Shown in pieces: positions 29,417 through 45,520 of a DNA stretch of 53,391 nucleotides. Location: NCBI GenBank assembly GCA_947626915.1, contig CANQUA010000012.1, positions 1 through 53,391 on the forward strand, in the 5' to 3' direction. Numbering within the stretch: the first letter of the stretch is position 1; each line of letters begins with the position of its first letter. The notes under the pieces were generated by a model. That model did not search any database and had not been told where the DNA came from. It worked only from the letters and a program-made list of their open reading frames with translations. Source of the stretch: an uncultured Lachnospiraceae bacterium. GTDB taxonomy: Bacteria; Bacillota; Clostridia; Lachnospirales; Lachnospiraceae. A program made the position numbers and the translations under genes.

Positions 29417-29718
29417 GAATTAGGTATTATCACTTATACTTCTTTTTTGGTCATACGGCACGAGGTCATGACCAAGAATGTTGAGGGGTAATTGAGGTTA
29501 TCGCGTTGAAGTTTTTTTGAAAAGCTAGGTATAAATTTGATAGTTACAGACATGTAAAAATGAGCTTGAAGAAATTTTAGACTTGGAGAGCAAACCTCAA
29601 AGAAAAAATGTTGCTTTAAAAATAATTTTTAATTGTTTTTACGGAATCACTAAATGACGGTCGTGTTACAATCCGACTTAAAACTATGCAAAATAGCGCG
29701 GAAGACAATAAAAATACC

Positions 29719-29765
29719 GGCAACGACGAAAGAAGAGATTAATGATTCCTTGTATCATCGTTGCC
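29719..29765 (-). terminator. Terminator of the LacI-type regulator gene
   Basis: GGCAACGA and TCGTTGCC pair across a loop of about 31 nt. On the minus strand the stem is followed by a T-rich stretch (GGTATTTTTATTG). Confidence 0.6.
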
Positions 29766-29778
29766 GCTTTATATCCCC

Positions 29779-31980
29779 TCACCCATTCCCCTCCCCCTGG
29801 AACGCATGCCGGTAGGCCTGGGCCGCGAACGAGAGCGCTTCCGAGGCGTCCATGGTCTCGCTGAGGACATTGTTGACGGCCATGCCCAGGATGCTCAGGA
29901 ACTGGCGCTCATTGAAATGGGTGCTCAGGTTGGGCGGGATCCGGTTGGTGTGGGAGGCGGACAGGCATTCCCGCGTGAGAGAAAGCCAGGGGTATGTGTC
30001 CAGCACTTCGTAGTTTTCATAGGTTTTGTGGCAGGGGGAGACGCTGCCCAGAAGCGTCATGGCGGTGGTTACGTTTTCGCTGCATATCCAGCGGATGAAA
30101 TCCATGGCTTCCTGCGGGTGTCTGCTGTTGCGGCAGACGCCAATGCTGCCTCCGCCGAGGAGCGGGTTGGAGCCGGGGACGATGGCATAGCCGATGTTGT
30201 TGGTGATTAGCGAGCCAGAGTCCAGGATTTCAGAGGCATAGTTGCTGAACAGAATGGTCATGGCCGTGTCGCCCCGGGCAAATTCCCGGGCTGTTTCCCG
30301 CCACCAGCTGCTGTGCCGCGCGGGGGCGTACAGACGGGTCTCGGCCAGCTCGTTCATGGCGGTCAGGCCGGTGGGGCCATCCAGCAGAAGGTTGCCGTCC
30401 GGCGAGAACAGATTGCCGGTATGGCTGAAATATCGGGACAGGTACTCGGTTGCCGCGACGCCGCTGTTGCCCAGTGTGAGCGTGGTGCCGTAGGTGACGG
30501 GCGATAATGGATTGAATTTTTTGGTAAAGAACCGGGCGATGCGGTTGAAACTGGCGTAATCGGTGGGCGGCGTCAGTTCGCATTTATATTGTTCCTTATA
30601 GAGACGCTGCAGGGCTACGGTCTCAAACAGGTCGCGCCGGTAAAACAGCATCTGCACGCTGGGCGTAATCGGAAGGGCGTACAGGATATCCCCCACGTGG
30701 GAATATTTCGGAATCAGTCCCGGTATGAAGGTTTGCAGCGTTTGCTCTAGGTCTGCCGACAGCGGCTGCATGGGCGAAAAAATCTGTGAGCCGAACCAGG
30801 AAAGCCAGGTGTGATCCAGGCGGATCACGTCAAAGACGGAAATATTGCCTAGGTCCTTCAGAATTTCATGAAGCCCGTCATAGGAGCTGATCACGATTTT
30901 TATTTGAATGCCGGTTGCGTCGGTGTAGAGCTTTGACAGGCTTTTAATGACGTGGGCGGTGGGGCTGTCCAGGGTAAGCAGTGTAAGGGATTTGCATTCG
31001 CTTTGCCTGCGGGGGGCCGCGGTCCAGCAGCGGATGCCGGCGTTTGCCAGAATGGCGGCCGCAGGCGGCGTCTGCGGAGCCGTTTGCGCTTCCATCAGGC
31101 GTTCAGCGGCATTTTTCCCGAGAAGACGGTAATTCAGTTCATAGCAATGGATGCCTCTGGAGGGCATTGTAAACAGGGGCGAAAGCGTATATACTTCGCA
31201 TTTATAATCCGGATGGAAGGTCTGCTGGATGCCGGAAAATGTCTGGGCCAGTCCATAGTTGGTCATGAATACTGCGTCCAGTCCTGCGGTTTCCTCCAGA
31301 AGCTGGAGGAAATGGTTGTTGCAGTGGAGAGAATTGGTCTGCACCATATGGATCTGGCAGTGGGAATTTTCCAGAACGGAGCGGAAACTGTCCAGAAACA
31401 AACGCTCGCAGGAAAAAGTCAGACTTTCGGTGACGACGGCAATTTCGCGGAAATTCCGGTTCAGCGCTTCAGCGGCCAGTTCGCGGCCCGCCTTTTCATA
31501 ATCAAAGCCGAAGTAAGAGTAGGTTTCTTTCTGACGCCGCTCTACAAACACGAGCTGTTCGGGCGAGAATCCGATGGAAGCGTAAATATCCTGCCTCGCG
31601 TTGGGCTGGCAGCTGAACGCGGCCAATCCGGCTACGCCTTCGGAGCGGATGGCGGCCAGCTGTTTTTTTTCATCTTCCGGGCTGTCGGCGGATAAGTACA
31701 GACTTACGGAGTAACCGCAGGTTTCCGCATAATGTTTGAAAGAAAGGTAGAAATCGGTATAATGCCGGTCGTATATATTGGGCAGCAGGACGGCCAATAT
31801 GTTGGAAGCGCCTTTGCGGAGCAGTTTGGCCCGTCGGTTGACAGTATATCCGAGTTTCGCCGCGGCCTCTTCTACGAGCCGGATCTTGTCGCTGCTCACG
31901 TTCCCTTTACCGTTCAGTACGTTGGATACAGTTCCTTGTGCCACGCCAGCTTCCCTGGCGATATCTTTGATGGTTGCCAT
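29779..31980 (-). CDS. LacI-family regulator fused to a solute-binding-protein-like domain
   Basis: The protein has 733 residues, about twice a normal LacI regulator. Residues 1-60 are a canonical LacI DNA-binding domain (MATIKDIAREAGVAQGTVSNVLNG). About 61-325 is the usual periplasmic-binding-protein-type ligand domain (LAVLLPNIYDRHYTDFYLSF). From about 330 onward it reads like an extracellular ABC solute-binding protein: SLTLLTLDSPTAHVIKSL, a DVIRLDHTWLSWFG segment, GDILYALPITPSVQMLFYRRDLF and HPQEAMDFIRWICSE. It has no signal peptide, so it would act in the cytoplasm with two ligand sites. AAGGAG precedes the ATG at 31980. It is divergent from the deacetylase-esterase pair and probably controls the locus. 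Confidence 0.88.
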   Translation of the reverse strand: MATIKDIAREAGVAQGTVSNVLNGKGNVSSDKIRLVEEAAAKLGYTVNRRAKLLRKGASNILAVLLPNIYDRHYTDFYLSFKHYAETCGYSVSLYLSADSPEDEKKQLAAIRSEGVAGLAAFSCQPNARQDIYASIGFSPEQLVFVERRQKETYSYFGFDYEKAGRELAAEALNRNFREIAVVTESLTFSCERLFLDSFRSVLENSHCQIHMVQTNSLHCNNHFLQLLEETAGLDAVFMTNYGLAQTFSGIQQTFHPDYKCEVYTLSPLFTMPSRGIHCYELNYRLLGKNAAERLMEAQTAPQTPPAAAILANAGIRCWTAAPRRQSECKSLTLLTLDSPTAHVIKSLSKLYTDATGIQIKIVISSYDGLHEILKDLGNISVFDVIRLDHTWLSWFGSQIFSPMQPLSADLEQTLQTFIPGLIPKYSHVGDILYALPITPSVQMLFYRRDLFETVALQRLYKEQYKCELTPPTDYASFNRIARFFTKKFNPLSPVTYGTTLTLGNSGVAATEYLSRYFSHTGNLFSPDGNLLLDGPTGLTAMNELAETRLYAPARHSSWWRETAREFARGDTAMTILFSNYASEILDSGSLITNNIGYAIVPGSNPLLGGGSIGVCRNSRHPQEAMDFIRWICSENVTTAMTLLGSVSPCHKTYENYEVLDTYPWLSLTRECLSASHTNRIPPNLSTHFNERQFLSILGMAVNNVLSETMDASEALSFAAQAYRHAFQGEGNG

Positions 31981-32065
31981 ATAATGATTCTCCTTTTCTG
32001 ATATTGAACCGTTTTGAACGAAGAACGCTTCTGAATATCGGCGAGTGTCGGATATCCCTGCATTT

Positions 32066-32095
32066 ATTATAACGTAAAAAACGCCGGTTTGTAAA
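32066..32095 (-). promoter_or_regulatory. Promoter of the LacI-type regulator gene
   Basis: On the minus strand TTTACA (32090-32095) and TATAAT (32066-32071) are separated by 18 bp. The divergent promoter and operator begin 18 bp away. Confidence 0.65.
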
Positions 32096-32113
32096 TAATT
32101 TATCGAAAAATAT

Positions 32114-32142
32114 TTGGCACGTTTCAATATTTGTGATATAAT
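32114..32142 (+). promoter_or_regulatory. Promoter with overlapping LacI-type operator, site 1
   Basis: TTGGCA (32114-32119), a 17-bp spacer and TATAAT (32137-32142). The pseudo-palindrome TGGCACGTTTCA (32115-32126) overlaps the -35 box. The same core recurs at 38024-38035 and 38421-38432. Confidence 0.75.
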
Positions 32143-32232
32143 CAGGGAGAACCGTCATACAGGAACGGTTGGAAGGTTGCTTTAAGAAACAGAGAATGGG
32201 AATGGAACAGAAAGAAAGGGGATTGACAGGCT

Positions 32233-33099
32233 ATGGCATGGGAAAAAAGCGGTGAAGAAAAGAAGGCTGCAATGTTTATGCGCTTTCCGGGCGGCAGATC
32301 CAAAGCGCTGACGCTGAGCTATGACGACGGCGTGGATCAGGACGAGAGACTGATTGCGATCATGAAGGCCCATGGACTGAAAGGAACGTTCAATTTGAAC
32401 AGCGGCCTTTATGCGCCGGAGGGAACGGTATATGAAGAGGGGAACGTGCACCGGCGCATGACGAGGAAGCAGGTGGACGCATTGTATACGGACAGCGGGA
32501 TGGAGATCGCGGTTCATGGGCTGACGCATCCTTTCCTGGAACAGCTGCCGCAGAACCGCTGCACCAGAGAAGTGCTTTGCGACCGGGAAAACCTGGAGAA
32601 GCAGTTTCATCGGCTGGTAAGGGGGATGGCGTATCCCTACGGAACGTTCAATGACGAGGTGGTGGAATGTCTGAAAACCTGCGGCATTGTATACGCCCGG
32701 ACGACCATTACGACCGGTAAATTCGATATTCCGGAGGATTGGCTGCGCTTGAAGGCGACCTGCCACCATAAGGATCCGCAGCTGATGGAGCTGGCCCGGA
32801 AATTTGTGGAGAAAAATACGTCCAGGGCGCCCTGGCTTTTCTATCTTTGGGGTCACAGCTATGAGTTTGAGCAGAATGATAACTGGAATGTGATCGAGGA
32901 ATTTGCAGAGTACACGGGCGGCCGGGAAGACATCTGGTACGCGACGAACCTGGAGATTTACGAGTATGTTCAGGCGTTTCAGCAGCTTGTGTTCAGCGTG
33001 GACGGCAGTATGGTGTATAATCCGACGGCGAGGACGCTGTATTTTCAGACTGCGTATGGCAGCTGCGAGGTAAAACCGGGCGAAACGGCGGAGCTGTAA
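32233..33099 (+). CDS. Polysaccharide deacetylase (NodB/CE4-like)
   Basis: Such enzymes remove acetyl groups from amino sugars or xylan. The protein has 288 residues and no signal peptide. The metal-binding start LSYDDGVDQD lies near 28-37, and the second His motif VHGLTHPFLEQL near 94-105. AYPYGTFND near 134-142 is the third motif. Residues about 255-288 form a beta-rich tail (MVYNPTARTLYFQTAYGSCEV). GAAAGGGGATTG lies about a dozen bases before the ATG at 32233. It is the first gene under operator site 1 and lies 87 bp before the SGNH esterase. Confidence 0.88.
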   Translation: MAWEKSGEEKKAAMFMRFPGGRSKALTLSYDDGVDQDERLIAIMKAHGLKGTFNLNSGLYAPEGTVYEEGNVHRRMTRKQVDALYTDSGMEIAVHGLTHPFLEQLPQNRCTREVLCDRENLEKQFHRLVRGMAYPYGTFNDEVVECLKTCGIVYARTTITTGKFDIPEDWLRLKATCHHKDPQLMELARKFVEKNTSRAPWLFYLWGHSYEFEQNDNWNVIEEFAEYTGGREDIWYATNLEIYEYVQAFQQLVFSVDGSMVYNPTARTLYFQTAYGSCEVKPGETAEL

Positions 33100-33186
33100 G
33101 CGCGAAGGATCGGGTCGGCCGCGAAAAAGCTTCGGACAAAAGGCGGGCGTTCCGGCTGGGGCTTATCCGAATCAAAATGGAAGGAA

Positions 33187-34233
33187 ATGGACATGTATAC
33201 AGAACATGGTTTTCAAATCGCGGCTCTGCCGGAAGCGCCGCTTCGGCTTTACGGCCTGGCGGTGGCGGACAAAGAGGGGCGTCGGTTCTGGAGGCTGCCG
33301 CCATATATGCTGGAAAAAATGCCTCAGTATGAGTTTTTGGGACGTCGGTGCGCGGGCGGCCGGGTGCGGTTTGAGACGGATTCGCCGCGGGTCCTGATCC
33401 GTATGACGCTGGATGCCTGCAGGGAGGACATCAATATTCCCCTGTCCGGTTCGGCCGGGGCGGATATCTATCTGGGAAGCGGCAGGTCCTCGGCTTATTT
33501 GGGATACATTGCTCCGAAGGTCCATACGGACCAGGAGATCGTCGTAGAGAAGCTGTTCACGAAAGGGGACCGATTGGAAACGGTCACGGTGAATTTGCCC
33601 CGCAACGATCTTCTTTTGGGGATGGAGATCGGCGTGGAGGAGCAGGCGGTATTTCGGGAAGCGCCGGAGTATCGGACGGCGAAGCCTGTCGTGTTTTATG
33701 GTTCTTCGATCACGGAAGGCGGCTGCGCCGGCAGGACGGGCACGTCTTATACCAGTGTTTTGGGCAGGTGGCTGGACGCGGATGTCCGGAATTTCGGATT
33801 TTCCGGAAAAGCAAAGGGAGAGACGGAGTTTGCCGAATACATCGCCGGTCTTTCCGAAATGAGTCTGTTTGTGTATGACTACGATCACAACGCGCCGGAT
33901 GCGGAACATCTTCGCGCGACTCATGAAGTTTTTTTCCAGATCGTGCGGAAAGCCTGGCCCAAGCTTCCCATTGTCATGCTTAGCCGCCCGGATACGGACA
34001 AAAATCCTGCGGATGCTGAAGCCAGGCGGGAGGCGGTACGACGGACGTATGAAAATGCCAGGACCGCCGGGGATGAAAATGTCTGGTTCCTGGACGGAGG
34101 GACATTTTTCGGGAATGAAGGGCGGCAGGAATGTACGGTCGACGGAACGCATCCTAATTCTTTGGGATTTATGAGAATGGCGCAGAGCCTGTATCCGCTG
34201 CTGGAGCGTATTCTGTATGGTGAAGTTCGCTGA
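33187..34233 (+). CDS. SGNH/GDSL-type carbohydrate esterase
   Basis: The protein has 348 residues with no signal peptide, so it is intracellular. The N-terminal 165 residues form a beta-rich domain. The SGNH hydrolase part begins with VVFYGSSITEGG near 170-181 (nucleophile Ser) and ends with DGTHPNSLGFMRM near 318-330 (catalytic Asp and His). This two-domain layout resembles acetyl esterases that act on sugar oligomers. AAGGAAATGG precedes the start; ATG at 33187 or 33193 are both possible. With the deacetylase before it, it would strip acyl groups from the imported glycan. Confidence 0.85.
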   Translation: MDMYTEHGFQIAALPEAPLRLYGLAVADKEGRRFWRLPPYMLEKMPQYEFLGRRCAGGRVRFETDSPRVLIRMTLDACREDINIPLSGSAGADIYLGSGRSSAYLGYIAPKVHTDQEIVVEKLFTKGDRLETVTVNLPRNDLLLGMEIGVEEQAVFREAPEYRTAKPVVFYGSSITEGGCAGRTGTSYTSVLGRWLDADVRNFGFSGKAKGETEFAEYIAGLSEMSLFVYDYDHNAPDAEHLRATHEVFFQIVRKAWPKLPIVMLSRPDTDKNPADAEARREAVRRTYENARTAGDENVWFLDGGTFFGNEGRQECTVDGTHPNSLGFMRMAQSLYPLLERILYGEVR

Positions 34234-34511
34234 GCTGCTGGAGCGATATGTCCCGCGTGAAGCTGAAAGAGCCGGCGTCCCGTCTGAATGGTGCGAGCTG
34301 CACGCAGATGGGGCGCCGTATTTGACATGGATTTTTAATCAGGGTATATTCGCTGCCGCGTAAACGCCCGGATATGCGCGCTCGTGCTGTTAAACAAATG
34401 AATTCACGGACGGGCGCGCGATGTTTGGATGGGGCGGTGGCGCGGCGTATGTTTCTGCCGCACGGACAAACGTCTCGCGGATGAGAGGATCCTGCGGGGC
34501 CGTCCGTCCGC

Positions 34512-36920
34512 TCAGTCGAGCTTCAGAATCATTTCCAGTATTCGTTTCGCACAGACCGCGATTTCCTCGCGGGTGATCAGGCCGCGATCCAGCGCCTCTT
34601 TGACGCGTTCCGGGTAGCCGGTTCCCATTTTGATGTCGTTGCCGGCTTTGGCTTCCCGGTAATGTTCTCCGAAATTCCCCCAGTCGGTGGTTACCATGCC
34701 GGTATACCCCCATTCTCCGCGCAGGATATTCGTCAATAGCTGCCGGTTTTCCGATGTACGCACGCCGTTGAGCAGATTGTAGGAACTCATGATCATGTAC
34801 GGCTGCGATTCCTTTACGGCGATCTCGAACGCTTTCAGATAGATCTCGCGCAGGGCGCGCTCCGAGACGCGGGAGTCGCTGTTCCGGCGGTTGGTTTCCT
34901 TGTTGTTGCAGGCAAAATGCTTGGCACAGGCCCCAATATGCTGAGACTGGATGCCGCGGATCAGAGCGGCGGCCATCTTGCCGGCGATCAGAGGGTCTTC
35001 GGAATAATATTCGAAATTCCGGCCGCAGAGCGGACTCCGGTGAATATTCATGGCGGGGGTCAGCCAGATGCCGATGTTGTTTTCCTTGACTTCTTCCGCG
35101 GCGGCCGCGCCGATTTGTTCCACCAGCGCCGTGTCACAGGTGCAGGCCAGCAGCGTCGCGCAGGGGAAAGCGGTGGTGCATACGCCGCGGTCGGCGACGA
35201 TGCGCAGCCCCGCGGGGCCGTCGGCGGTCATCACGTTGGGAACGCCGTACTCCGGAAGGTTGCCCATGCCCTGGGTATTGGCCACGCCTGTGTTGGGCTG
35301 TCCGCCCAGCAGATGGATCAGATCGTCGTCGCTGAGCTGCGAGATGAAATCGTCCAGGGACAGCCTGCCTTCCGCAACTTTCAGGAGCTGGAAAGGCTGA
35401 AGCTGCCTGCGCCGGCTGCTGGTAAGCCGGCCGACGCCGCGCACGGCCGGGGAGCAGGCGTCCAGATGCGCGGTGTCCTGGCGCGGGAGTCCCGGTTCTT
35501 CGACGGGATCGTCCATGGGCAGCTCTTCATAGCTTCCGTCGCTTAACAGCCTGCGGGGAAGCTTGTGGGGGCCGGCCTGCGGGGTCAGCTGCTCCGTCAT
35601 CAGTACGTCTTCCTGGCGGTAGACGAAGCTGATCTGCGCGGCATCCCGCACATTTTCTCCGATGAAGAATGTATAATCTCCGGGTTCAAGGATCCAGGCG
35701 CTGGCGCGAACCTTTCCGGTGTCGTCATAGGAAGCCATGGAGGAAACCGGAAATGAAAGGGTCAGGTATTGCTCCTCCCCCGGATTCAGAAGGCCGGTTT
35801 TGCCGAAAGCGGCCAGGACGCGGCTGGGTTTTCCCAGCTTTCCCTGCGGCGCGCTGTAATAAATCTGAAGCACGTCCCGGCCGGCCCGCGCGCCCGTATT
35901 GGTGATCCGGACGCGGAAGCAGAGCTGGCCTTCCCGGCAGCAGGCGTCCAGCAGGCTGGCGGAAAAAGTGGTGTAGGACAGGCCGAAGCCGAACGGATAG
36001 ATTACTTTGGAGGCAGCGCCCGGCAGCGTCTGGAAGTACCGGTAGCCGACGTAAATATCTTCCGTATAGTTTACATAATCATCCGACTCGTGAAACGTGT
36101 CGCTGGAGGGATAATCTTCCAGTGCGGCGGCAAATGTATCCGTCAGCCGCCCGGAGGGGTTTACATCGCCGCAGAGAACTTCCGCGATGGCCATGCCGCC
36201 TTCCATGCCGCCCTGCCACGCCATCAGACCCGCGGTTATGCGGTTGTTGTCCCGGAGCCAGCTGACGTCGACCATGCCGCCCACGTTCATTACAACGATC
36301 ACGCGCGGGAAATTCCGGCATACCGCGTCGAGCAGCGCCTCTTCCGCGCACGACAGGTAGAAGTCGCCCCTCTCGAAAATAGCCGCGCCCATTTTCAGGT
36401 AGCGGTGGCTGTTTTCCGGGATGTCCTGGCTGCCGCACACGCGGTCCCAGGATTCTCCGGAGAAACGGCAGAAACTCACAACGGCTGTGTCCGCGGCGGC
36501 TCTGGCCCGCTCAAGCAGACCGGCGGGCAGAGCCGGTTCCCGGGTCATGCCGGGGATGGCGCCCTCTGCGAACTGTCCGGCAATTTCTTTTTCGTAGAAT
36601 TGAGGAAGCTCGTGGAATAGTTCCACCCGTCCCTGGCTTTCCATCTGCTTCATGCCGTCGTACAGGTTCCGTATGTAAGCGACCGTTACGTCGCCGCTTC
36701 CGCCGCCGCCCTTGACATAGTCGATGGTGCCCTTGCCGAACAGGGCTACCTTTGCGCCTGGGGCGAGGGGAAGACAGTTATCCTGGTTTTTAAGCAGCAC
36801 CATGCCCTCCCCGGCCGCGCGCCGGGAAAGCCGGATGTGTTCTTCGCTGCCTGTGACTCTCCTGCCGTCTTCCCCGAGGGGGAGCACCGGCTGATACAAA
36901 AATCTCTGCCATTTTCCCAT
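34512..36920 (-). CDS. Glycoside hydrolase family 3 beta-glycosidase, inverted domain order
   Basis: The protein has 802 residues and lacks a signal peptide. The domain order is swapped relative to common GH3 enzymes. The GH3 C-terminal sandwich comes first (SRRAAGEGMVLLKNQDNCLP from about 32), then a fibronectin-like domain (about 340-440, ending GDYTFFIGENVRDAAQI). The catalytic barrel comes last (TADGPAGLRI near 565, KHFACNNKETNR near 670, nucleophile Asp in VTTDWGNFG near 740). This order is known from rumen and gut clostridial beta-glucosidases. AGAAGGAGGTAT precedes the ATG. It follows the amidohydrolase gene by 24 bp, in one transcript. The sugar released cannot be told from sequence. 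Confidence 0.93.
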   Translation of the reverse strand: MGKWQRFLYQPVLPLGEDGRRVTGSEEHIRLSRRAAGEGMVLLKNQDNCLPLAPGAKVALFGKGTIDYVKGGGGSGDVTVAYIRNLYDGMKQMESQGRVELFHELPQFYEKEIAGQFAEGAIPGMTREPALPAGLLERARAAADTAVVSFCRFSGESWDRVCGSQDIPENSHRYLKMGAAIFERGDFYLSCAEEALLDAVCRNFPRVIVVMNVGGMVDVSWLRDNNRITAGLMAWQGGMEGGMAIAEVLCGDVNPSGRLTDTFAAALEDYPSSDTFHESDDYVNYTEDIYVGYRYFQTLPGAASKVIYPFGFGLSYTTFSASLLDACCREGQLCFRVRITNTGARAGRDVLQIYYSAPQGKLGKPSRVLAAFGKTGLLNPGEEQYLTLSFPVSSMASYDDTGKVRASAWILEPGDYTFFIGENVRDAAQISFVYRQEDVLMTEQLTPQAGPHKLPRRLLSDGSYEELPMDDPVEEPGLPRQDTAHLDACSPAVRGVGRLTSSRRRQLQPFQLLKVAEGRLSLDDFISQLSDDDLIHLLGGQPNTGVANTQGMGNLPEYGVPNVMTADGPAGLRIVADRGVCTTAFPCATLLACTCDTALVEQIGAAAAEEVKENNIGIWLTPAMNIHRSPLCGRNFEYYSEDPLIAGKMAAALIRGIQSQHIGACAKHFACNNKETNRRNSDSRVSERALREIYLKAFEIAVKESQPYMIMSSYNLLNGVRTSENRQLLTNILRGEWGYTGMVTTDWGNFGEHYREAKAGNDIKMGTGYPERVKEALDRGLITREEIAVCAKRILEMILKLD

Positions 36921-36944
36921 TTTGAAATATACCTCCTTCTGCCG

Positions 36945-37769
36945 TCAGCCTTTTGCCGCCGTGCTGTCGGTCTGCTCGCCTAAAAATTTCAGCAGGTTTC
37001 CGCCGAAGATCCGCGCCTCGTCCTCCTCGCTCAGTCCCAGGGAGCGGAGCCGCCCGATATCCTGCATCGTCTGGTCTTCCCGGTTGTAGGGGAAATCCAG
37101 CCCGAATATGCTCCGCCCGCAGCCGGTCAGCCAGAACAGATCCTTAAGCTGCTGGTCGTCCAGATACCAGTATTTGTTTTTCCCGCGGTCGGACACGCTG
37201 GTCAGCCCCGCGAACACATTCTTCCTGTTATTGGACATCACCGCTACGGCTTCCCGGAAAAAGGAGTACCCGCCCACATGTTCCATGCTGAACCGCAACG
37301 CCGGGAAATGCCAGGCTACCTCGTCGAAAAGCAGTACATTGTAGTCCCGTATCCGGTGCCAGTGGATGCCCGTGTGGAAGGAGAGCGCCAGTCCCTCATC
37401 CTGCGCCGCCTCGTAGATTTCAAATGCCTCCGGCGAGTCGATTTTTAATTTCTGCACCGCCGGGTGGATCTTGATCCCGCGCAGTCCCAGGCCGCGGATC
37501 GCGTGAACCTGCTCTTTCAGGTTCCCTTTTTCAATATTGACGATGCCGAAGCCGTACAGCCGGTCCTGGTTCCGGATCTGCGCCGCCAGCCAGCGGTTCT
37601 GGTCGCTGTATTCGCTGTCGTCAAAGTATTTGGAAAACGGCGCAAACGCAACCGCCTTTGAAATGCCGCAGAGATCCATGATCCGCAGCAGTTCGCCGAT
37701 GGTTCCGTCCGGGCGCACCTGTTCCTGAAAAACATGGGCGTGGTTTGCGAAGATTTCATAGGATTTCAT
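36945..37769 (-). CDS. Amidohydrolase-superfamily (amidohydrolase 2) metal-dependent hydrolase
   Basis: The protein has 274 residues with a TIM-barrel pattern. Metal-binding signs are NHAHVF at 9-14, His in LSFHTGIHW near 131, His in MEHVGGYSFF near 160 and a catalytic Asp in FGLDFPYNRED near 224. These enzymes hydrolyse lactones or C-N bonds, or decarboxylate sugar-like acids. GGAGGCATAC precedes the ATG. It leads the minus-strand transcript with the GH3 gene and is driven from operator site 2. A lactonase or decarboxylase role in the same glycan pathway is plausible but unproven. Confidence 0.85.
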   Translation of the reverse strand: MKSYEIFANHAHVFQEQVRPDGTIGELLRIMDLCGISKAVAFAPFSKYFDDSEYSDQNRWLAAQIRNQDRLYGFGIVNIEKGNLKEQVHAIRGLGLRGIKIHPAVQKLKIDSPEAFEIYEAAQDEGLALSFHTGIHWHRIRDYNVLLFDEVAWHFPALRFSMEHVGGYSFFREAVAVMSNNRKNVFAGLTSVSDRGKNKYWYLDDQQLKDLFWLTGCGRSIFGLDFPYNREDQTMQDIGRLRSLGLSEEDEARIFGGNLLKFLGEQTDSTAAKG

Positions 37770-38006
37770 ACTGTATGCCTCCTGTAAAATGGCTGCGGTT
37801 CTTAGCTGTACTGCTTCTTTTGCCGGCCGCCTTGCCGCGTACTCCGGCTGCCGGCGGGAACTTTTTTTCGCACGTTCCTGCGCTGCTATGGCAGCAGAGG
37901 CAGGGCCGCGTTTACAGCCGTGTCCGGCCTCTTTCTTCCCGCGCTGCCGTGCGTGACTGCCCGCTGAAGCGTCTGCATTTCCGGACGCATGCGGGTCCTC
38001 TCTTAT

Positions 38007-38036
38007 AGTCTACTACTAAATTGCGAAACGTGTCAA
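38007..38036 (-). promoter_or_regulatory. Promoter with LacI-type operator, site 2
   Basis: On the minus strand TTGACA (38031-38036) is followed after 18 bp by TAGACT (38007-38012). The operator TGACACGTTTCG (38024-38035) overlaps the -35 box. The leader to the amidohydrolase start would be about 230 nt. Confidence 0.6.
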
Positions 38037-38419
38037 TCTTATTTTTGCGTATTTCTGCTTTTTTCAATAAAATTTCCCTGTTCAAACGGCGCGGAACAAC
38101 CGCGGAGCGGGTGCGGAATCCTGGGAAACGGCCATGGAATTAACGCGGAACATCCGCGTATTTGGCTGAAATCCGCGTATTGGCAGGTTTTCCTGCCGGG
38201 CAGATATCCGCGCCTTTCCTGTGCGTCTCCGGCTTATGCGAGACCGTGCAGAGCGCCGTATTTCATATTGAATGTTTTTGAATGCGTATTGACTGATTTG
38301 TCAAGGGATTGTCTCTGCTTTTGCATTTGATCCTGCATGATTGCCAAATTTTATCAGAATACACCTTTGCAAATATAAAAAAATGTTAAAAAGTATATAA
38401 AAAATTTTTAAAAACAATA

Positions 38420-38448
38420 TTGACACGTTTCACGACATGAAGTATAAT
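38420..38448 (+). promoter_or_regulatory. Consensus promoter with LacI-type operator, site 3
   Basis: A perfect TTGACA (38420-38425), a 17-bp spacer and a perfect TATAAT (38443-38448). The operator TGACACGTTTCA (38421-38432) overlaps the -35 box, so a bound repressor should block polymerase. Confidence 0.85.
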
Positions 38449-38518
38449 CAAACCACAAGGGTACCTGAAGAAACTCATTAACCGGTTATCAGCTACAGTA
38501 AAGAGGAGGGTGGCGGAA

Positions 38519-38566
38519 TTGACGAATACATACGCATCAGACGGCACGAAGGGGGGAATACGATGA
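38519..38566 (+). CDS. Possible 15-residue leader peptide before permease gene
   Basis: A TTG at 38519, eight bases after GAGGAGGG, opens a frame encoding MTNTYASDGTKGGIR. It ends in a TGA that overlaps the permease ATG as ATGA. The permease also has its own GGGGGG site inside this frame. The spacing and overlap suggest translational coupling. Confidence 0.35.
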   Translation: MTNTYASDGTKGGIR

Positions 38567-39528
38567 GAGAAAAAATCTCCGCGGAATCCGGAGCGGCCGC
38601 AAAAGCGGCGAAACAGAAAGCAAGGGAGAGAACACGGCGGCTGATTAAAAGGAACTGGCTTCTGTATCTGTTTCTGCTTCCGGCGGCGCTCTATATTTTC
38701 ATTTTCCACTATGGGCCGATGTATGGAATCCAGATCGCTTTCAGGGATTTTAAGCCGGTGAAAGGCATATGGGGCAGTCCGTGGGTCGGAATGAAATGGA
38801 TTCAGACTTTTATTGATACGCCCCGCTTTTGGACCATCCTGAAGAATACGATCGTGATCAGCCTCTATTCCCTGATCAGCTTTCCGTTTCCGATTCTGCT
38901 GGCGTTGTTTATCAACAATGTCCAGAATATGCGGGCCAAGAAATTTGTCCAGACCATTACCTATATGCCGCATTTCATTTCAACCGTGGTACTGGTCGGC
39001 ATGATCTCCATGTTTTTGTCTCCCAGGAACGGAGTTATCAATCTGCTCGTGGAGTTTTTCGGAGGTTCCAGGGATACGTATTACATGGGAAGCGCCTCGG
39101 CATTTCCGCACATTTACGTTTGGTCAGGCATCTGGAAGGGCATGGGCTGGAGTTCCATCATTTACGTGGCCGCGCTGACAGGCGTGGATCAGGAACTGCA
39201 TGACGCGGCGCAGGTGGACGGCGCGAACAAGCTTCAGCGGATCCTCCACATTGATATCCCGTCGATTCTTCCGACCGTCATTATCATGCTGATCCTGCGG
39301 CTCGGCAATATCATGGGGGTAGGCTATGAGAAGGTATATCTGATGCAGAACTCCCTGAACATCACAGCGTCAGAGGTGATCTCGACCTATGTTTACAAGA
39401 TGGGTCTGCAGAATCAGAGGTTCAGCTATTCGGCGGCGATTGGGTTGTTCAATAACATCATCAATTTTATCATCCTTATCATTGCCAATAAGACGGCGGA
39501 TAAGGTGAGCGGTTCCAGTCTGTGGTAA
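38563..39528 (+). CDS. Sugar ABC transporter permease, LplB type
   Basis: The protein has 321 residues with six hydrophobic helices after a basic cytoplasmic N terminus (about 1-30). The EAA loop that contacts the ATPase is visible as HDAAQVDGANKLQRILHIDIP near 208-228. LplB/YtcP permeases import oligosaccharides or uronic-acid-type sugars and borrow a shared MsmX-like ATPase encoded elsewhere, and no ATPase gene is in the window. It is the first gene of the transporter operon under operator site 3. Confidence 0.95.
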   Translation: MREKISAESGAAAKAAKQKARERTRRLIKRNWLLYLFLLPAALYIFIFHYGPMYGIQIAFRDFKPVKGIWGSPWVGMKWIQTFIDTPRFWTILKNTIVISLYSLISFPFPILLALFINNVQNMRAKKFVQTITYMPHFISTVVLVGMISMFLSPRNGVINLLVEFFGGSRDTYYMGSASAFPHIYVWSGIWKGMGWSSIIYVAALTGVDQELHDAAQVDGANKLQRILHIDIPSILPTVIIMLILRLGNIMGVGYEKVYLMQNSLNITASEVISTYVYKMGLQNQRFSYSAAIGLFNNIINFIILIIANKTADKVSGSSLW

Positions 39529-39539
39529 GGAGGCGGCTT

Positions 39540-40442
39540 ATGGCAAAAACGGGAAGAATGATTAAGAAATCCTGGGATAACCGCCTGTTCGACGCCCTCG
39601 CCAACACGTTCCTGATCGTGATGGTGGTGATTACGATTTACCCGCTGTGGTTTATTCTGGTGGCCTCCGTCACGGATTACAAGCTGATTAATTCCGGAAC
39701 GCTGCTGCTGTGGCCGAAGGGCTTCCATCTGCTGGGCTACCAGAGGGTGTTTGAGGACTGGCGGATCTGGAGCGGGTACATGAACACCATTATTTATACG
39801 GTCGGCGGTACGCTGTTCGGCGCGGTTACAACGATTTTGGCCGGCTACGCGTTTTCCAGAAGGGATCTGCCGGGCAGCGGGATACTGATGAAGCTGTTTA
39901 TTTTTACCATGTATTTCGGCGGCGGCCTGATCCCGACCTACCTGCTGATCAATTCGCTGGGCCTGGTTAATTCCCGGCTCCTGATGATCCTGCAGAGCAG
40001 TGTTTCGGTCCACAATATTATCGTCGTAAGGTCGTTCATGCGGGGCAATATTCCGGATGAGCTTCTGGATGCCGCGACCATCGACGGCTGCGGAAACGGT
40101 ACATTTTTCATATCGGTGGTCGTACCGCTGTCGAAAGCGATTTTCGCGGTTATGGTGCTGTATATCGCGGTCAGCCACTGGAACGCTTATTTCAACGCAT
40201 TGATTTACCTGACGGACAGGTACAAGTATCCGCTGCAGGTGTTTTTGAGGGAGATTCTGCTTCAGACGACGGCGGCATCCGATTTGGAGGAAGACGCGGA
40301 GGTGATGATGCAGCTGCAGCAGATGACGGCGACGATTCGCTACAGTGTGATCGTGGTTTCGACGCTCCCGATCCTCTGCGTATATCCGTTTATCCAGAAA
40401 TATTTTGTAAAGGGCGTCATGATCGGTTCCGTGAAGGGCTGA
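39540..40442 (+). CDS. Sugar ABC transporter permease, YtcP type
   Basis: This second permease subunit has 300 residues and about six helices. The EAA loop reads LDAATIDGCGNGTFFISVVVP near 177-197, and MYFGGGLIPTYLLINSLGL near 124-142 is typical of the YtcP group. AAGGAGGCGGCTT precedes the ATG at 39540. An in-frame GTG upstream overlaps the previous gene and is less likely. It pairs with the LplB-type permease 11 bp upstream. Confidence 0.95.
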   Translation: MAKTGRMIKKSWDNRLFDALANTFLIVMVVITIYPLWFILVASVTDYKLINSGTLLLWPKGFHLLGYQRVFEDWRIWSGYMNTIIYTVGGTLFGAVTTILAGYAFSRRDLPGSGILMKLFIFTMYFGGGLIPTYLLINSLGLVNSRLLMILQSSVSVHNIIVVRSFMRGNIPDELLDAATIDGCGNGTFFISVVVPLSKAIFAVMVLYIAVSHWNAYFNALIYLTDRYKYPLQVFLREILLQTTAASDLEEDAEVMMQLQQMTATIRYSVIVVSTLPILCVYPFIQKYFVKGVMIGSVKG

Positions 40443-40508
40443 TGGGCGTTTAAGAAAATGTTTGTAACAGGAAGATTATCTATACAATCAAAAACAGGAG
40501 GGTATTTT

Positions 40509-42284
40509 ATGAAGAAACAGGTTTTGGCGGCAACAATGGCGATGGTATTGGCCGCGTCCGCAATGACCGGCTGCGGAGGAAACGGGGCTTCCGGCACGAC
40601 GGCGGCGACGACAGCGGCAGCAACGACGGCGGCAGCAACCGCGGCAGCAACGACGGCGGCAGCGACTACAGCGGCGGCGCAGGGAGAAGAAACGACGCAG
40701 GCGGCTGAAGCGGACAACATTATGCCCAACGGGCTTCCGGTAGATTATTTCGCCGGGACGACTTTGAACATTTACACGCAGAACGGCAGCGCCGATCTGT
40801 CGACGGATCCGAGCGAGAAGCTGATCGTCCAGCTGGCGGAAGAGGCGACGGGGATACATATCAACTGGACCGTGCTTTCGTCGCAGGCCTGGACGGAGCG
40901 TGTGAACCTGATGCTGGCCAGCGGGGACATGCCCGACGCGTTCCTGCAGAACATCAGCCAGAATACGATCGGCACGAATATCGACCGTTTCTATGATCTG
41001 AGCGACGGGTCGCTGGAGACCTACGCGCCGGCTACGCTGGCCACGATCCAGACGGCGTATCCGAACGGGATCGAGGCGCTCAGATGGCCGGACGGCTCCA
41101 TTCGTTCCCTGCCCACGAGCTCTGTGGCCAGCAGCTCCTATGACTGGGTGAACTGGCTGATCATGATTAATAAGACCTGGCTGGATCGGGTCAATATGGA
41201 CATGCCGACAACGACCGACGAACTGTACGAGGTGTTGTGCGCGTTCCGGGATCAGGACGCCAACGGCAACGGGGATCCAAGCGACGAAATTCCGTTCGGC
41301 TTCGCTGACAAAGATTCCAACATAAATATCGGGCATACCGCGAACTATTTCGGTATTGCCAACGCGAAAGACGGTACGAACGGCCGTTTCAAGATGGTCA
41401 AAAACGGCGTAGTGACTCCGACTGCCGATACGGATGAATGGCGTGCGTGGCTGGAGTGGCTGAACAAACTGTACGATGCCGGATTGCTGGATCCGGAAGG
41501 TTTCTCGCAGACCAAGGACGAATATACCACGAAGCTGAGCAGCGATCTGTACGGCGTGGCGATGATGTTCTCGCCGGTTCATCAGGGCCTGAATCCCGAC
41601 GAATGGGAGCTTCTGTGGGTGAAGGGACTCGACGGCGTAGAGCCTGTCCATGATGGAACAAGTCAGTATGACGCTACCAAAAAATTCGGCTTCACGATCT
41701 CCGCGACCTGCTCGAACGTACCGGCGCTGCTGCACTGGTGGGATTATATGTCCAGCACCCGTGAGCTGAAGCTGATCAGCAGGATGGGCGAGATGGGCCT
41801 GGTCTGGAACGAGAAGGACGGTCAGTATTACAGCAGCGAGGATTATATTGATTCTCAGGTGATGAAGGATCATCCGGACTGGACGAGAAGCAACCTGCAG
41901 CAGACGCTGGGCTTCAACGATCGATGCGTGCTGGTCTCTTACGACGATCTGGTACCGGACGGGCCAGACGGAAGCGTTCTCTACAAAGGGGAATTTAAGC
42001 CTGCCGATCCGTATCAGTCTGCCACCTGCCGTACAATTCTGATGAATACGGTTTCGGGATGGCTGCAGGACGAGTACATGCCGAGCTGCATCGAGGATCC
42101 GGACGCGGTGGCGGATCGGACGCTGATTGAGACAGACCTCTTCCCGATGATCACCAACTTCGCGTCTACGAGCATTGTGAACGGCGTGACGGACGAGAGC
42201 TGGAACACCTATAAGCAGAGCCTGGAGACCTACGGTTACTACGATTGGATCGAGTGGTATAATGAGAACACGATGAAGAATTGA
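40509..42284 (+). CDS. Extracellular sugar-binding lipoprotein of the ABC transporter
   Basis: The protein has 591 residues. A lipoprotein signal ends at AMTGC, so Cys near 22 would be acylated and anchored outside the membrane. Residues about 28-60 are a Thr/Ala-only spacer encoded by ACG/GCA/ACA-type triplets, a flexible tether. The rest is a large solute-binding fold of the LipO type (LNIYTQNGSADLSTDPSEKL, MLASGDMPDAFLQN, ADKDSNINIGH). The ATG at 40509 follows AGGAGGGTATTTT. It completes the permease pair and sets substrate specificity. At nearly 600 residues it is a long binding protein, usual for complex oligosaccharide importers. Confidence 0.95.
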   Translation: MKKQVLAATMAMVLAASAMTGCGGNGASGTTAATTAAATTAAATAAATTAAATTAAAQGEETTQAAEADNIMPNGLPVDYFAGTTLNIYTQNGSADLSTDPSEKLIVQLAEEATGIHINWTVLSSQAWTERVNLMLASGDMPDAFLQNISQNTIGTNIDRFYDLSDGSLETYAPATLATIQTAYPNGIEALRWPDGSIRSLPTSSVASSSYDWVNWLIMINKTWLDRVNMDMPTTTDELYEVLCAFRDQDANGNGDPSDEIPFGFADKDSNINIGHTANYFGIANAKDGTNGRFKMVKNGVVTPTADTDEWRAWLEWLNKLYDAGLLDPEGFSQTKDEYTTKLSSDLYGVAMMFSPVHQGLNPDEWELLWVKGLDGVEPVHDGTSQYDATKKFGFTISATCSNVPALLHWWDYMSSTRELKLISRMGEMGLVWNEKDGQYYSSEDYIDSQVMKDHPDWTRSNLQQTLGFNDRCVLVSYDDLVPDGPDGSVLYKGEFKPADPYQSATCRTILMNTVSGWLQDEYMPSCIEDPDAVADRTLIETDLFPMITNFASTSIVNGVTDESWNTYKQSLETYGYYDWIEWYNENTMKN

Positions 42285-42326
42285 AGGGAACACCCGGCTG
42301 ACAGTTCCGCCAGCGAGAAAAATCTG

Positions 42327-43580
42327 ATGAATGAAACGACGGAAAGCTATCAGATTGTCTATGCGAAGGATGCGCCGGAACGCGTGAAAAACGCGGCGCT
42401 GACGCTGAAGGCGGGACTGGAAGCCGGAGCGGATGGAGCGGCGGTACCGGTTAGCGACGATTCGGCGGCGGAGACGGAGTTTGAGATCCTCTTCGGAGAT
42501 ACGAACCGGGCCGCCCTGCAGCCGGATGAAGAACTGTTTTATTACGATTATGTGATCCGCCGGGAAGCCGGGAAGATTACGGTGCGTTTCGGCAGCGGCT
42601 TCGCGGCGGAGAGCGCGGCGGAAATGCTGCCGGAGCTTCTGGAAACCGGCGGGCTGGAGGAGGAATACCGCTATCATTTCGACACCTCTCTGTTTAATCC
42701 GCTGGCTCTCGATCCGGATTCTTTTGTCCCCGTGTGGAAGGATGAATACACGGTACCGGACTGGATGACGGATTTTGGGGAAAAGCTGTACGCGATCACC
42801 AATCCGTCCGGGCGCCTGATGTCGGTGGCGCACCGCGGCGACGTGGTATATTATCCGGAAGATTCCCTGGAGGGCATACTTTCCGCCGCGTTTCTCGGCG
42901 CGGATGTGATCGAGATGGACCTGCAGATGACCAGGGATCACGTACTGGTTCTCAGCCACGACGGCGTATTGGGAACGTATACCAATGTAAAGGAAATGAA
43001 GGGCAAGAACGGTCTGCCGGATTCGGAGGCCATCTGCGACTGGACGTATGCGCAGCTGCAGCAGCTGTCTCTGCTGGACCGTTCCCGCAAGGTGTCGGAT
43101 TGTAAGCTGCCGAGCTTTTACGAGGTTCTGCTGGCGCTGCGCGGACGGTGCTTCGCGATGGTGGATCAGAAGGACATCGGCTCCTTTACGGCGGAAGACC
43201 TGCTGGAAATAGAGACGCGGACGGACGCTCTGGAGGTATCGATTTATTCCATGTTTCTGCAGTCGGCGTCCGGCCCTGCGCAGGGCGATTCGTGGAGCTA
43301 TTTAAGCGGCTACGCAAAGGAGCATCCGGAGCTGGAGCGTTTCTGTGCGTTTATTGAAAAGCTGGATTCGTATATGGCGATGGACGGGCATCAGATCCGG
43401 AAGCGCGGCTGGCCGGGCGGCGGCCCCAGCAAAATTCCGGATTTTGAGAGCGCTGAGCTTTATGAAAAAGCCTACAGCGAGCGGGGAATGAATCTCCAGT
43501 ACGCGAACCACATTCCCAGGATGACGCAGTACATCGCGGAGAATTTCGGCCCGGATCTGGATACGGATGAAATGGATTAA
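42327..43580 (+). CDS. GDPD-like phosphodiesterase with extra N-terminal domain
   Basis: The protein has 417 residues. The N-terminal 125 resemble the small alpha/beta domain that precedes catalytic modules in several glycosidases (YQIVYAKDAPERVKNAALTL, EFEILFGDTNR). From about 160 a glycerophosphodiester phosphodiesterase domain follows: VAHRGDVVYYPEDSLEG near 168-184, GADVIEMDLQMTRD near 192-205 and VLSHDG near 209-214. This keeps both catalytic His and the Glu-x-Asp metal ligands. No signal peptide is present. It lies 42 bp after the binding protein in the same transcript, with only a weak ribosome binding site. Confidence 0.85.
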   Translation: MNETTESYQIVYAKDAPERVKNAALTLKAGLEAGADGAAVPVSDDSAAETEFEILFGDTNRAALQPDEELFYYDYVIRREAGKITVRFGSGFAAESAAEMLPELLETGGLEEEYRYHFDTSLFNPLALDPDSFVPVWKDEYTVPDWMTDFGEKLYAITNPSGRLMSVAHRGDVVYYPEDSLEGILSAAFLGADVIEMDLQMTRDHVLVLSHDGVLGTYTNVKEMKGKNGLPDSEAICDWTYAQLQQLSLLDRSRKVSDCKLPSFYEVLLALRGRCFAMVDQKDIGSFTAEDLLEIETRTDALEVSIYSMFLQSASGPAQGDSWSYLSGYAKEHPELERFCAFIEKLDSYMAMDGHQIRKRGWPGGGPSKIPDFESAELYEKAYSERGMNLQYANHIPRMTQYIAENFGPDLDTDEMD

Positions 43581-43584
43581 TGTA

Positions 43585-43613
43585 TTGACAGGCGGGCGGG
43601 TTTACGGCAGAAT
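43585..43613 (+). promoter_or_regulatory. Possible internal promoter
   Basis: TTGACA (43585-43590), a 17-bp spacer and CAGAAT (43608-43613), between the two GDPD-like genes. Confidence 0.35.
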
Positions 43614-43684
43614 AGAAACACGGTTTGCGGCCTGTTCCGCAGGCGGATACAAGGTAAAACGATCACAGGAGGGCGGAAAAAAGC

Positions 43685-44515
43685 ATGAACGAGCTGAAGG
43701 AATGGTTTGATAAAAAAGGAGTAATGGTGGCTGCGCACCGGGGGCTTTGCGGGGCGAATATTCCCTGCAATACGATTCCGGCGTTTGAGATCGCGGTCGC
43801 AAACGGGGCGTCGATCGTGGAACTGGATCTGTTTAAGACCGCGGACGGGCAGATCATGGTGTTCCATACGGGCAAGGAGTCCCATCAGTTCAAGGTGCAG
43901 GCGGACGTGACGAAAATGACGGAGGCGGAGGTGCGGCAGCTCCGGTATCTGAACGCGGACCGCAACGAAACCCATTACGGCGTGGAGCTTTTTGACGACG
44001 TGCTGGAACATTTCAAGGGCCGCTGCCTGCTGAACCTGGACCGGTGCGACGGGTTCCTGGCGGACGCGGTGCGGTGCGTGGAGCGTCACGGGATGCGCGA
44101 TCAGATTCTGCTGAAAACGGCTCCGAAGCCGCATCTGCTGGCCGAGGTGGAGGCGTGCGCCCCCAACTATATGTATATGCCCATTTACAAGGAACAGGAT
44201 ACGGCCACGGAGCAGATCGGGCGGATGAATATTCACATGGTCGGCGCGGAGCTGGTGTTCGCGACGGAGGAATCGCCGGTAGCGCAGCAGGAATATATAG
44301 ACAGAATGCGCGCGAAAGGCCTGGTGCTGTGGGGAAATACGCTGATTTACAATGAAAAGGTGCCGCTGACCGCAGGTCACAACGACGACGTTTCCGTCCT
44401 GGGCAGGCCGGAGGACGGCTGGGGCTGGCTGGCGAAAAAAGGGTTCGGCATTATTCAGACGGACTGGACGGCCCAGTGCGCGGTGTGGCTGAAGGAAAAT
44501 GGTTACAGCTTCTGA
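43685..44515 (+). CDS. GDPD-like phosphodiesterase with altered motif residues
   Basis: The protein has 276 residues, a single GDPD barrel without signal peptide. AAHRGL near 16-21 and VELDLFKTADGQ near 39-50 keep the first catalytic His and the Glu-x-Asp pair. The usual PEN(T) reads PCNT, and the usual HD reads FHTG: the second His is kept but its Asp is Thr. Activity is therefore likely but may be altered. The C-terminal IIQTDW is typical of the family. ACAGGAGGGCGG precedes the ATG. It follows the first GDPD-like gene by 104 bp and was probably recruited to the same pathway. Confidence 0.85.
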   Translation: MNELKEWFDKKGVMVAAHRGLCGANIPCNTIPAFEIAVANGASIVELDLFKTADGQIMVFHTGKESHQFKVQADVTKMTEAEVRQLRYLNADRNETHYGVELFDDVLEHFKGRCLLNLDRCDGFLADAVRCVERHGMRDQILLKTAPKPHLLAEVEACAPNYMYMPIYKEQDTATEQIGRMNIHMVGAELVFATEESPVAQQEYIDRMRAKGLVLWGNTLIYNEKVPLTAGHNDDVSVLGRPEDGWGWLAKKGFGIIQTDWTAQCAVWLKENGYSF

Positions 44516-44546
44516 GCGCCGGCATGAGGGGCGGACGCGCGGCGGA

Positions 44547-44654
44547 CGCGGCGGAAGAGAGCGGAGAGGCGGCGTCCGGAGCGAGGAATGGCGGGAACGG
44601 ATGCAGGGAACGCGGCGGAAGAGAACGGGGCCCCGGCGTCCGGAGTGAGGAATG
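44547..44654 (+). repeat. Two imperfect 44-bp direct repeats, 64-bp period
   Basis: 44547-44590 and 44611-44654 share CGCGGCGGAAGAGA at the start and GGCGTCCGGAG(C/T)GAGGAATG at the end. They lie in the GC-rich gap between the second GDPD-like gene and the MBL-fold gene. Confidence 0.75.
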
Positions 44655-44761
44655 ACAAAGCGCGGCGGCGCGGAAGAGAGCAGGAGAAAGCAGGTGAGGA
44701 TGAAAAGCGGCACGAAACAAAGAAAAATAAAATGGAATATTACCGATATAGGAGGGCTGAA

Positions 44762-45520
44762 ATGAGAATGAAATTTCTTGGTATCGGCGCGGCGTACAAC
44801 CCTTCCTGGGGCAGCAACAGTGCGTTTTTCATGGCGGGAAAGCAGTTATATCTGATGGACTGCGGGGAAAGCGTGTTTGGCTGCATGGCGGATCGCCCGG
44901 AGCTGGCGGAATGCGAGGCGGTTAATATATTGATCACGCATCTCCATTCCGACCACATCGGCAGTCTGGGTTCGTTTATCTCGTATTGCAGGCATGTGCT
45001 GGGCAAACCGGTGCTTGTCGCGTCGCCGGACCATGCGCTGGCGGTCATATTGAAGCTGACGGGAATTGAAGAAGAGGAGTATGAATTCCGGACGGAGTTT
45101 GCGGAGGCGTTCCCGGGAGGGATCCGGGTGAAGCCTCTGGAGGTGGTGCATGCGCTTCATATGAGGTGTTTCGGGTACTATCTTTCGGATGGAAATGAGA
45201 CGGTTTTTTACAGCGGCGACGCGAACGTGATGCCGGAGGAGGTGCTGAACCGCCTTAAAACGGGGGAAGTGGCCCATGTTTATCAGGAGGCGACGTTTAA
45301 GGAGAAGCAGCACCCGTCGCATTGTTCATTAAAAAAGTTGTGCGAGAGCGTACCGGAGGAACTGCGGGCGCGTGTCACCTGTATGCACTTCGGGGAAGAT
45401 TTTCAGGCGGAGGCCAGGAAGTGCGGGTTTGATGTGGCGCAGGTGTATGAACCGCGCGCGGCGAAGGAGGCGTGGGACGTGAAAGAACTGCGCCCGGTGA
45501 GAGAAGCGTGCGCGGTATAG
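44762..45520 (+). CDS. Metallo-beta-lactamase-fold hydrolase (RNase Z/PhnP-like)
   Basis: The protein has 252 residues. The metal-binding motif ITHLHSDHIGSLG lies near 57-69, with further ligands in VVHALHMRCFGYYL near 127-140, VFYSGDANVM near 150-159 and TCMHFGEDF near 214-222. This layout fits the phosphodiesterase-like branch of the MBL superfamily (RNase Z, PhnP), not beta-lactamases. ATAGGAGGGCTGAA precedes the ATG at 44762. The frame is open upstream to 44588, but that part is repeat-rich and charged. Next to two GDPD-like genes, it adds a third phosphodiester-type hydrolase to the locus. Confidence 0.85.
   Translation: MRMKFLGIGAAYNPSWGSNSAFFMAGKQLYLMDCGESVFGCMADRPELAECEAVNILITHLHSDHIGSLGSFISYCRHVLGKPVLVASPDHALAVILKLTGIEEEEYEFRTEFAEAFPGGIRVKPLEVVHALHMRCFGYYLSDGNETVFYSGDANVMPEEVLNRLKTGEVAHVYQEATFKEKQHPSHCSLKKLCESVPEELRARVTCMHFGEDFQAEARKCGFDVAQVYEPRAAKEAWDVKELRPVREACAV

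Follow-up and report, generated by a model that had tools for sequence, protein, structure and literature searches.

A candidate operator at three promoters beside a LacI-type regulator fused to a solute-binding protein in a Lachnospiraceae locus

The fused regulator and the genes of the locus

The window analysed here is a stretch of 53,391 nucleotides from an uncultured Lachnospiraceae bacterium (contig CANQUA010000012.1 of assembly GCA_947626915.1). It contains a locus in which a short motif, the candidate operator, recurs at three promoters in the vicinity of a gene for a LacI-type regulator fused to a solute-binding protein of the type used by ATP-binding cassette (ABC) transporters. The regulator, the candidate operators and the predicted promoters are as follows.

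29779..31980, minus strand: LacI-type regulator fused to an ABC-type solute-binding protein (Pfam, profile search of solved structures, orthologues)
32114..32127, plus strand: candidate operator 1, TTGGCACGTTTCAA (sequence match, promoter scan, orthologue alignment)
38023..38036, minus strand: candidate operator 2, TTGACACGTTTCGC (sequence match, promoter scan)
38420..38433, plus strand: candidate operator 3, TTGACACGTTTCAC (sequence match, promoter scan)
32114-32142, plus strand: deacetylase promoter, TTGGCA-17-TATAAT, −10 at 32137-32142, −35 formed by the left half of operator 1
38036-38007, minus strand: amidohydrolase-GH3 promoter, TTGACA-18-TAGACT, −35 under operator 2
38420-38448, plus strand: ABC transporter promoter, TTGACA-17-TATAAT, −10 at 38443-38448, −35 under operator 3
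32066..32095, minus strand: predicted regulator-gene promoter, TTTACA-18-TATAAT (consensus match only)

The regulator consists of 733 residues and comprises a helix-turn-helix (HTH) domain (residues ∼3-48), a LacI-type effector-binding domain that extends to residue ∼327, and a solute-binding protein (residues ∼331-727). Pfam detects the LacI HTH (PF00356, E 1.4e-12, above the cut-off) together with a domain of bacterial solute-binding proteins (E 4.1e-18). A profile of 21 members, all of which carry both PF00356 and PF01547 (21/21, the window's protein included), was compared with solved structures; its N-terminal part matches LacI (3-321) and CcpA (2-318) over nearly the whole chain, and residues 331-727 align to residues 30-421 of the 422-residue 5iai chain (E 1.1e-37). 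The structure profile also reveals the homology of the effector domain to periplasmic sugar-binding proteins that is a trait of the LacI family. The Pfam signal for this domain is weak, with Peripla_BP_4 below the cut-off in the window protein; Peripla_BP_4 is found in 10/21 members and Peripla_BP_1 in 6/21. An earlier note on this DNA had placed a LacI-type gene in the locus, and the HTH and effector domains agree with that assignment, but the gene is not a plain one, as the protein departs from the two-domain LacI architecture by ∼400 extra residues that form a complete solute-binding protein. The orthologues of the regulator are 96, 82, 76 and 75% identical to it, and matches at E ≤ 1e-40 occur in 26/299 family genomes; in G026 and G081 only the C-terminal half is matched among the matches listed. 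An AlphaFold2 model of the regulator, made with four orthologues, was too poor for use (mean pLDDT 37.8), and the domain limits come from profile searches. No derivation of the sensor half from the transporter of its own operon is claimed: among the open reading frames (ORFs) of 31 loci, the C-terminal profile matched, outside the regulators, only one ORF of 433 amino acids (L064).

The genes behind the candidate operators encode enzymes and a transporter.

32233..33099, plus strand: polysaccharide deacetylase-like gene (PF01522), first behind operator 1
33187..34233, plus strand: SGNH/GDSL esterase (PF14606/PF14607)
34512..36920, minus strand: GH3 glycoside hydrolase (PF01915/PF00933)
36945..37769, minus strand: amidohydrolase (Amidohydro_2, PF04909), first behind operator 2
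38563..42284, plus strand: two ABC permeases together with the solute-binding protein of the transporter itself (PF00528 in the first permease, PF01547 in the binding protein), first behind operator 3
42327..44515, plus strand: two genes of the glycerophosphodiester phosphodiesterase (GDPD) family (Pfam), the second of which (43685-44515) has DUF4996
44588..45520, plus strand: metallo-beta-lactamase (MBL)-fold hydrolase (RNase Z and PhnP matched weakly, below cut-off)

The second permease has no Pfam match. Both permeases resemble UgpA/UgpE (NCBIfam) and sugar systems, in each case below the cut-off.

Candidate operator sequence and promoter geometry

The three core motifs lie exactly where the earlier note had located them, with TGGCACGTTTCA at 32115-32126 (plus strand), TGACACGTTTCG at 38024-38035 (minus strand), and TGACACGTTTCA at 38421-38432 (plus strand). 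Extension of the cores by one base yields TTGGCACGTTTCA, TTGACACGTTTCG, and TTGACACGTTTCA, each of which starts with the −35 hexamer of a sigma-70-type promoter; the overlap with −35 boxes described in the note is thus borne out. Operator 1 is also upstream of the divergent regulator gene and is separated by 18 bp from the predicted promoter of that gene, on its upstream side, a relation of position only that bears on autoregulation. The core had further been credited with a central CG and near-dyad symmetry. The central CG is present, but the symmetry is partial, as 5, 4, and 5 of the 7 base pairs over 14 bp are symmetric by eye at sites 1, 2, and 3, respectively. The even palindrome with a central CG that characterizes LacI-family operators is represented by TTGACACGTTTCAA, the operator form of two orthologous loci (L057 and L058), in which 6/7 pairs are symmetric by eye. 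Taken across the sequences compared, the predicted general form of the operator is a 14-bp near-palindrome, TTGRNACGTNNYAA, with NYCAA as the commonest end and CG at the centre.

Of the 15 promoter-like sites in 29500-45600, the three operator promoters all fall within the top six, and two of them are near consensus (12 and 11 of 12 positions). A spacer scan of 34 loci with 42 distinct sites, in which palindromes are counted both ways, revealed a mean TATAAT match of 4.48 of 6 at spacer 17, where every other spacer between 10 and 29 averages 1.36-2.81; 33/42 sites have a −10 match of at least 5 of 6 at spacer 16-18. Since a −10 box usually lies 17 bp downstream, one half of the operator is at the same time the −35 hexamer; the arrangement is most naturally read as repression in which RNA polymerase is kept off the promoter. 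The TTGACA left half-site is probably kept by RNA polymerase besides the regulator, and such a double constraint would account for a dyad that always departs from symmetry in the same direction.

The same geometry bears on the direction of control. Some LacI-family members activate transcription, and a two-sensor protein could give mixed outputs, so the fused regulator might bind the sites and activate, or act in a mixed way. We consider this very unlikely: the site covers the −35 hexamer itself, and two of the three promoters come close to the consensus, as strong promoters under repression do.

The distance from operator 2 to the amidohydrolase start (window 37770-38022) is ∼253 bases; it is 256 in G317 and ∼71 in G313. 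The extra sequence looks G+C-rich by eye.

Distribution of the motif and its link to the regulator

The earlier note had called for a genome-wide search, with many unrelated matches as the outcome that would speak against its proposal. The genome comprises 3.18 Mb in 107 contigs and was searched with the reversed motif as a control. The exact 13-mer TTGRCACGTTTCR has three matches, all in the locus, and the control has none; the confinement of sites to the neighbourhood of the regulator is a trait of local regulons. Loose matches are at chance level both in the window (15 at ≤2 mismatches vs 13.0 expected) and in the genome (7 at ≤1 mismatch vs 11 for the reversed control). Four one-mismatch places lie outside the locus, three of them inside ORFs and one before a protein-kinase gene. 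The places in ORFs were set aside as extra regulon members; the fourth, TTGACACGTTTGA at L005:1501-1513 (G000 contig 13), has no right half-site and may belong to the regulon or may be only a −35 box.

The operators of LacI-family proteins resemble one another, which leaves room for another DNA-binding protein, the global CcpA or a LacI paralogue, as the user of the sites. A global regulator should have sites genome-wide, however, rather than three exact matches in one locus. In the consensus of the catabolite-responsive element (cre), the TG of each half-site lies one base further from the central CG than in the window operator. The motif also goes with the fused regulator among the genus genomes and with residue 15 of its recognition helix, as described below. 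We regard a different binding protein as very unlikely.

Across the genus, 12/26 genomes have a regulator match at E ≤ 1e-60, and in five, among them the window's own genome, the match is an orthologue (75-100% identical). The five were compared for the exact 13-mer with 14 genus genomes that have no match at E ≤ 1e-60. The orthologue genomes carry 3, 4, 5, 4, and 3 sites (19 in total), whereas the 14 others carry two in total, in ORFs of 976 and 370 amino acids. All except two of the 19 sites (17/19) are in the locus or on contigs carrying locus genes; of the remaining two, one lies in a 264-amino-acid ORF and one overlaps the end of a 391-amino-acid ORF. In these 19 genomes together, the reversed control was matched 11 times, once in an orthologue genome, and single strays are therefore to be expected. 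When the five regions upstream of the regulator genes are aligned, the longest stretch without variation is CACGTTTCAA, and most neighbouring columns vary. The note had also suggested a comparison of orthologous loci, in which the sites turn out to stay while gene order differs; in G316 and G320, a GDPD gene rather than the deacetylase is divergent from the regulator, and the operator is kept nonetheless.

The pattern TTGACACGTNYCAA is not enriched family-wide, with 24 distinct places in 23/299 genomes vs 48 for the reversed control (hand count). Six of the 24 places (in G046, G088, G114, G119, G253, and G283) are beside a fused regulator or its cluster genes; five of these are upstream of any long ORF, and the sixth (L125) is in a mechanical extension of a GDPD ORF. 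The other 18 places include 16 within ORFs of at least 150 amino acids, and the sites of G104 and G237, two genomes with distant fused regulators, belong to these 18. Location, not frequency, distinguishes the regulator-linked copies.

More distant relatives were sampled through 50 non-identical regulators, 31 of which are at least 29% identical to the window regulator. The DNA examined around the latter amounts to 5-20 kb each and that around the regulators at 25-28% identity to 3.8-5.3 kb each. The pattern TTGRCACGTNNYAA occurs around 28/31 regulators at ≥29% identity, within ∼1.5 kb of the gene in 23/31, and around 23/26 homologues (29-46% identical) once the five orthologues are excluded. 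It occurs around none of the 19 regulators at 25-28% identity within the 3.8-5.3 kb around each, and the reversed pattern is absent from all 50 regulator regions. Of the three regulators without the strict TTGRCACGTNNYAA, two (L110 and L113) are accompanied by a related palindrome; no such palindrome was found for L115. In the case of a homologue from an E. coli plasmid (31% identical), TTGACACGTTCCAA lies between the regulator gene and a divergent PhnP-like MBL gene. This 5.3-kb E. coli segment is present in 46/5426 E. coli genomes, in 44 cases on a plasmid and in two on a chromosome.

Two side observations concern these relatives. The E. coli plasmid region L054 (CP098972.1 32705-50843) combines the fused regulator homologue and a matching operator with divergent genes of three kinds, PhnP-like MBL, MFS (nucleoside-permease-like), and MgtC-like. 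L065 and L117 (in G114 and G313) harbor a similar transporter-GDPD-MBL operon, with permeases ∼80-82% identical to those of the window; the fused regulator that accompanies it there is a very different one (31%), with TTGACACGTACCAA as the operator. Both systems are present in G313.

The recognition residues of the HTH, numbered 15, 16, and 20 as in PMC2978694, are Q15, G16, and N20 in the window regulator. With regulators clustered at 60% identity, operator position 11 is C in 0/7 Gln15 clusters vs 10/12 His/Arg15 clusters (Fisher p 0.0007; ancestry ignored). One of the two exceptions, L067 (Arg15), is a tie with one site counted in both directions. The table leaves out two Lys15 clusters and an Asn15 cluster, and window sites 2 and 3, each with T at position 11, do not enter the count, as their ends miss the pattern. 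The tree distributes Gln15 over two distinct clades; its support is weak close to the midpoint root. PMC2978694 ties Arg20 to guanine at NT-6; in the window regulator, residue 20 is Asn and NT-6 is T (our own numbering).

These comparisons also bear on a rival reading in which the shared sequence is only a strong −35 box (TTGACA), with a CGTTTC tail that is due to chance or inheritance and is read by no regulator. TTGACA matches the −35 consensus of sigma-70, and all three sites belong to the region's top six promoter-like sites, as such a reading would have it. It is nevertheless highly improbable: CACGTTTCAA is invariant where most adjoining columns are not, where genus-mates carry the exact sequence elsewhere than in the locus, it falls within an ORF or at the end of one, and across distant relatives the right half shifts along with residue 15 of the regulator.

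Interpretation and comparison with known systems

The three motifs are very probably operators of the neighbouring LacI-type regulator, which would hide the −35 boxes and silence the three promoters until a ligand releases it. The sites, their conservation, their link to the regulator, and the promoter geometry are supported by the sequence comparisons; binding, repression rather than activation, ligand release, the extent of the transcripts, and the ligand are what we infer. In the proposed mechanism, the regulator would bind the 14-bp near-palindrome, whose left half-site is also the −35 hexamer; by virtue of this overlap, the bound repressor would hide the −35 box and silence the deacetylase-esterase, amidohydrolase-GH3, and ABC transporter-GDPD-MBL promoters. 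Site 1 is near the predicted promoter of the regulator itself, which would allow autoregulation, a common feature of LacI-family local regulons (PMC4052901). An imported substrate or breakdown product may fill one or both of the sugar-binding-type pockets, in the LacI-type domain and in the fused solute-binding protein, upon which the regulator would release the DNA and the locus would be transcribed. The compact candidate regulon of the earlier note holds up, with exact matches only in the locus and with sites that follow the regulator among the genus members tested and vary with residue 15.

Several observations weigh against this interpretation. L115 (Gln15, 19 kb) and L017 (His15, 5 kb) have no site, and seven genus genomes with only 31-34% homologues fall outside the presence test. 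The window sites are imperfect dyads, site 2 being the worst, and site 1 has G in the left half despite Gln15. In the residue-15 comparison, the exception L109 (His15) has T in a site that is a perfect palindrome, the Lys15 clusters are split between C and T, and the rule rests on few independent changes, because Gln15 is found in only two clades. As regards promoter geometry, the orthologue-genome site L095:2243 has no −10 box, and the −10 match at the E. coli plasmid site reaches no more than 4 of 6.

The nature of the substrate is suggested by gene content. The deacetylase, SGNH, and GH3 genes fit the description as a glycan locus in the earlier note, but the commonest partner near homologous regulators is the GDPD/DUF4996 gene, of a phosphodiesterase family, in 20/31 neighbourhoods by clustering plus the window, whose copy was missed because an overlapping ORF was picked instead. 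An MBL-fold gene is present in 9/31 neighbourhoods and an MgtC-like gene in 10/31. The transporter genes of the distant locus L060 resemble those for 2-aminoethylphosphonate below the cut-off, and the same three transporter gene clusters occur together in 11/31 loci. Our guess from gene content is a phosphodiester-linked substrate whose acetyl, amide, or glycosidic decorations are removed by the deacetylase, SGNH, amidohydrolase, and GH3 products; the ligand might, by a similar guess, be a glycosylated or acetylated glycerophosphodiester. The locus may thus handle a phosphodiester-linked compound rather than a plain glycan. As a side observation, a 351-amino-acid gene (L057:10577-11632) lies behind an operator kept in L057 and L058 and has no Pfam or NCBIfam match at E ≤ 0.001; similar genes are present in 4/31 loci.

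Judged from sequence, the system is a real local LacI-type regulon that is run by a double-sensor variant. The double-sensor regulator hereby gains a predicted operator and a regulon, along with a specificity rule that turns on a single residue. These are testable in vitro, and a route is opened to its ligands and to the coupling of two binding-protein folds with one DNA-binding head. A bolder proposal, tentative and in our estimate somewhat improbable, is a repressor class with a whole transporter-type solute-binding protein as a second sensor. Such repressors would weigh two ligands, e.g. a phosphodiester-linked conjugate alongside a sugar, at a single operator that also serves as the −35 box, and would have their own recognition rule (a TVSN helix, in which Gln15 avoids and His/Arg15 favours a TTGG-type right half-site); a copy with its operator would have reached E. 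coli plasmids.

Among known systems, CcpA is close in that its structures rank with the top hits for the N-terminal half of the regulator and both recognize, or are predicted to recognize, a near-palindrome with a central CG. The window motif differs from cre in having only three exact sites, all local, and half-sites one base nearer the centre, and it does not belong with cre. The C-terminal part of the regulator matches the sugar-binding proteins of ABC transporters (5iai 'Sugar ABC transporter', the trehalose/maltose-binding protein 1eu8, and SmoF); here it is part of an HTH protein and hence presumably a cytoplasmic sensor rather than a transport component. No description of a LacI/solute-binding-protein fusion regulator was found among the papers listed, judged by title and abstract opening. 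The LacI-family local regulons of PMC4052901 and the LacI recognition code of PMC2978694 have in common with the window system the LacI HTH, the effector domain, an even near-palindrome with a central CG, few sites around the regulator's own locus, and a specificity tied to recognition-helix residues. The published code is restricted to the TVSR group, which the window regulator, with its TVSN helix, is outside of. The regulators described in the consulted parts of both sources also lack a fused second ligand-binding protein. The operator and its placement are conventional; what distinguishes the regulator from those descriptions is the second binding protein joined to it, along with its TVSN recognition helix.

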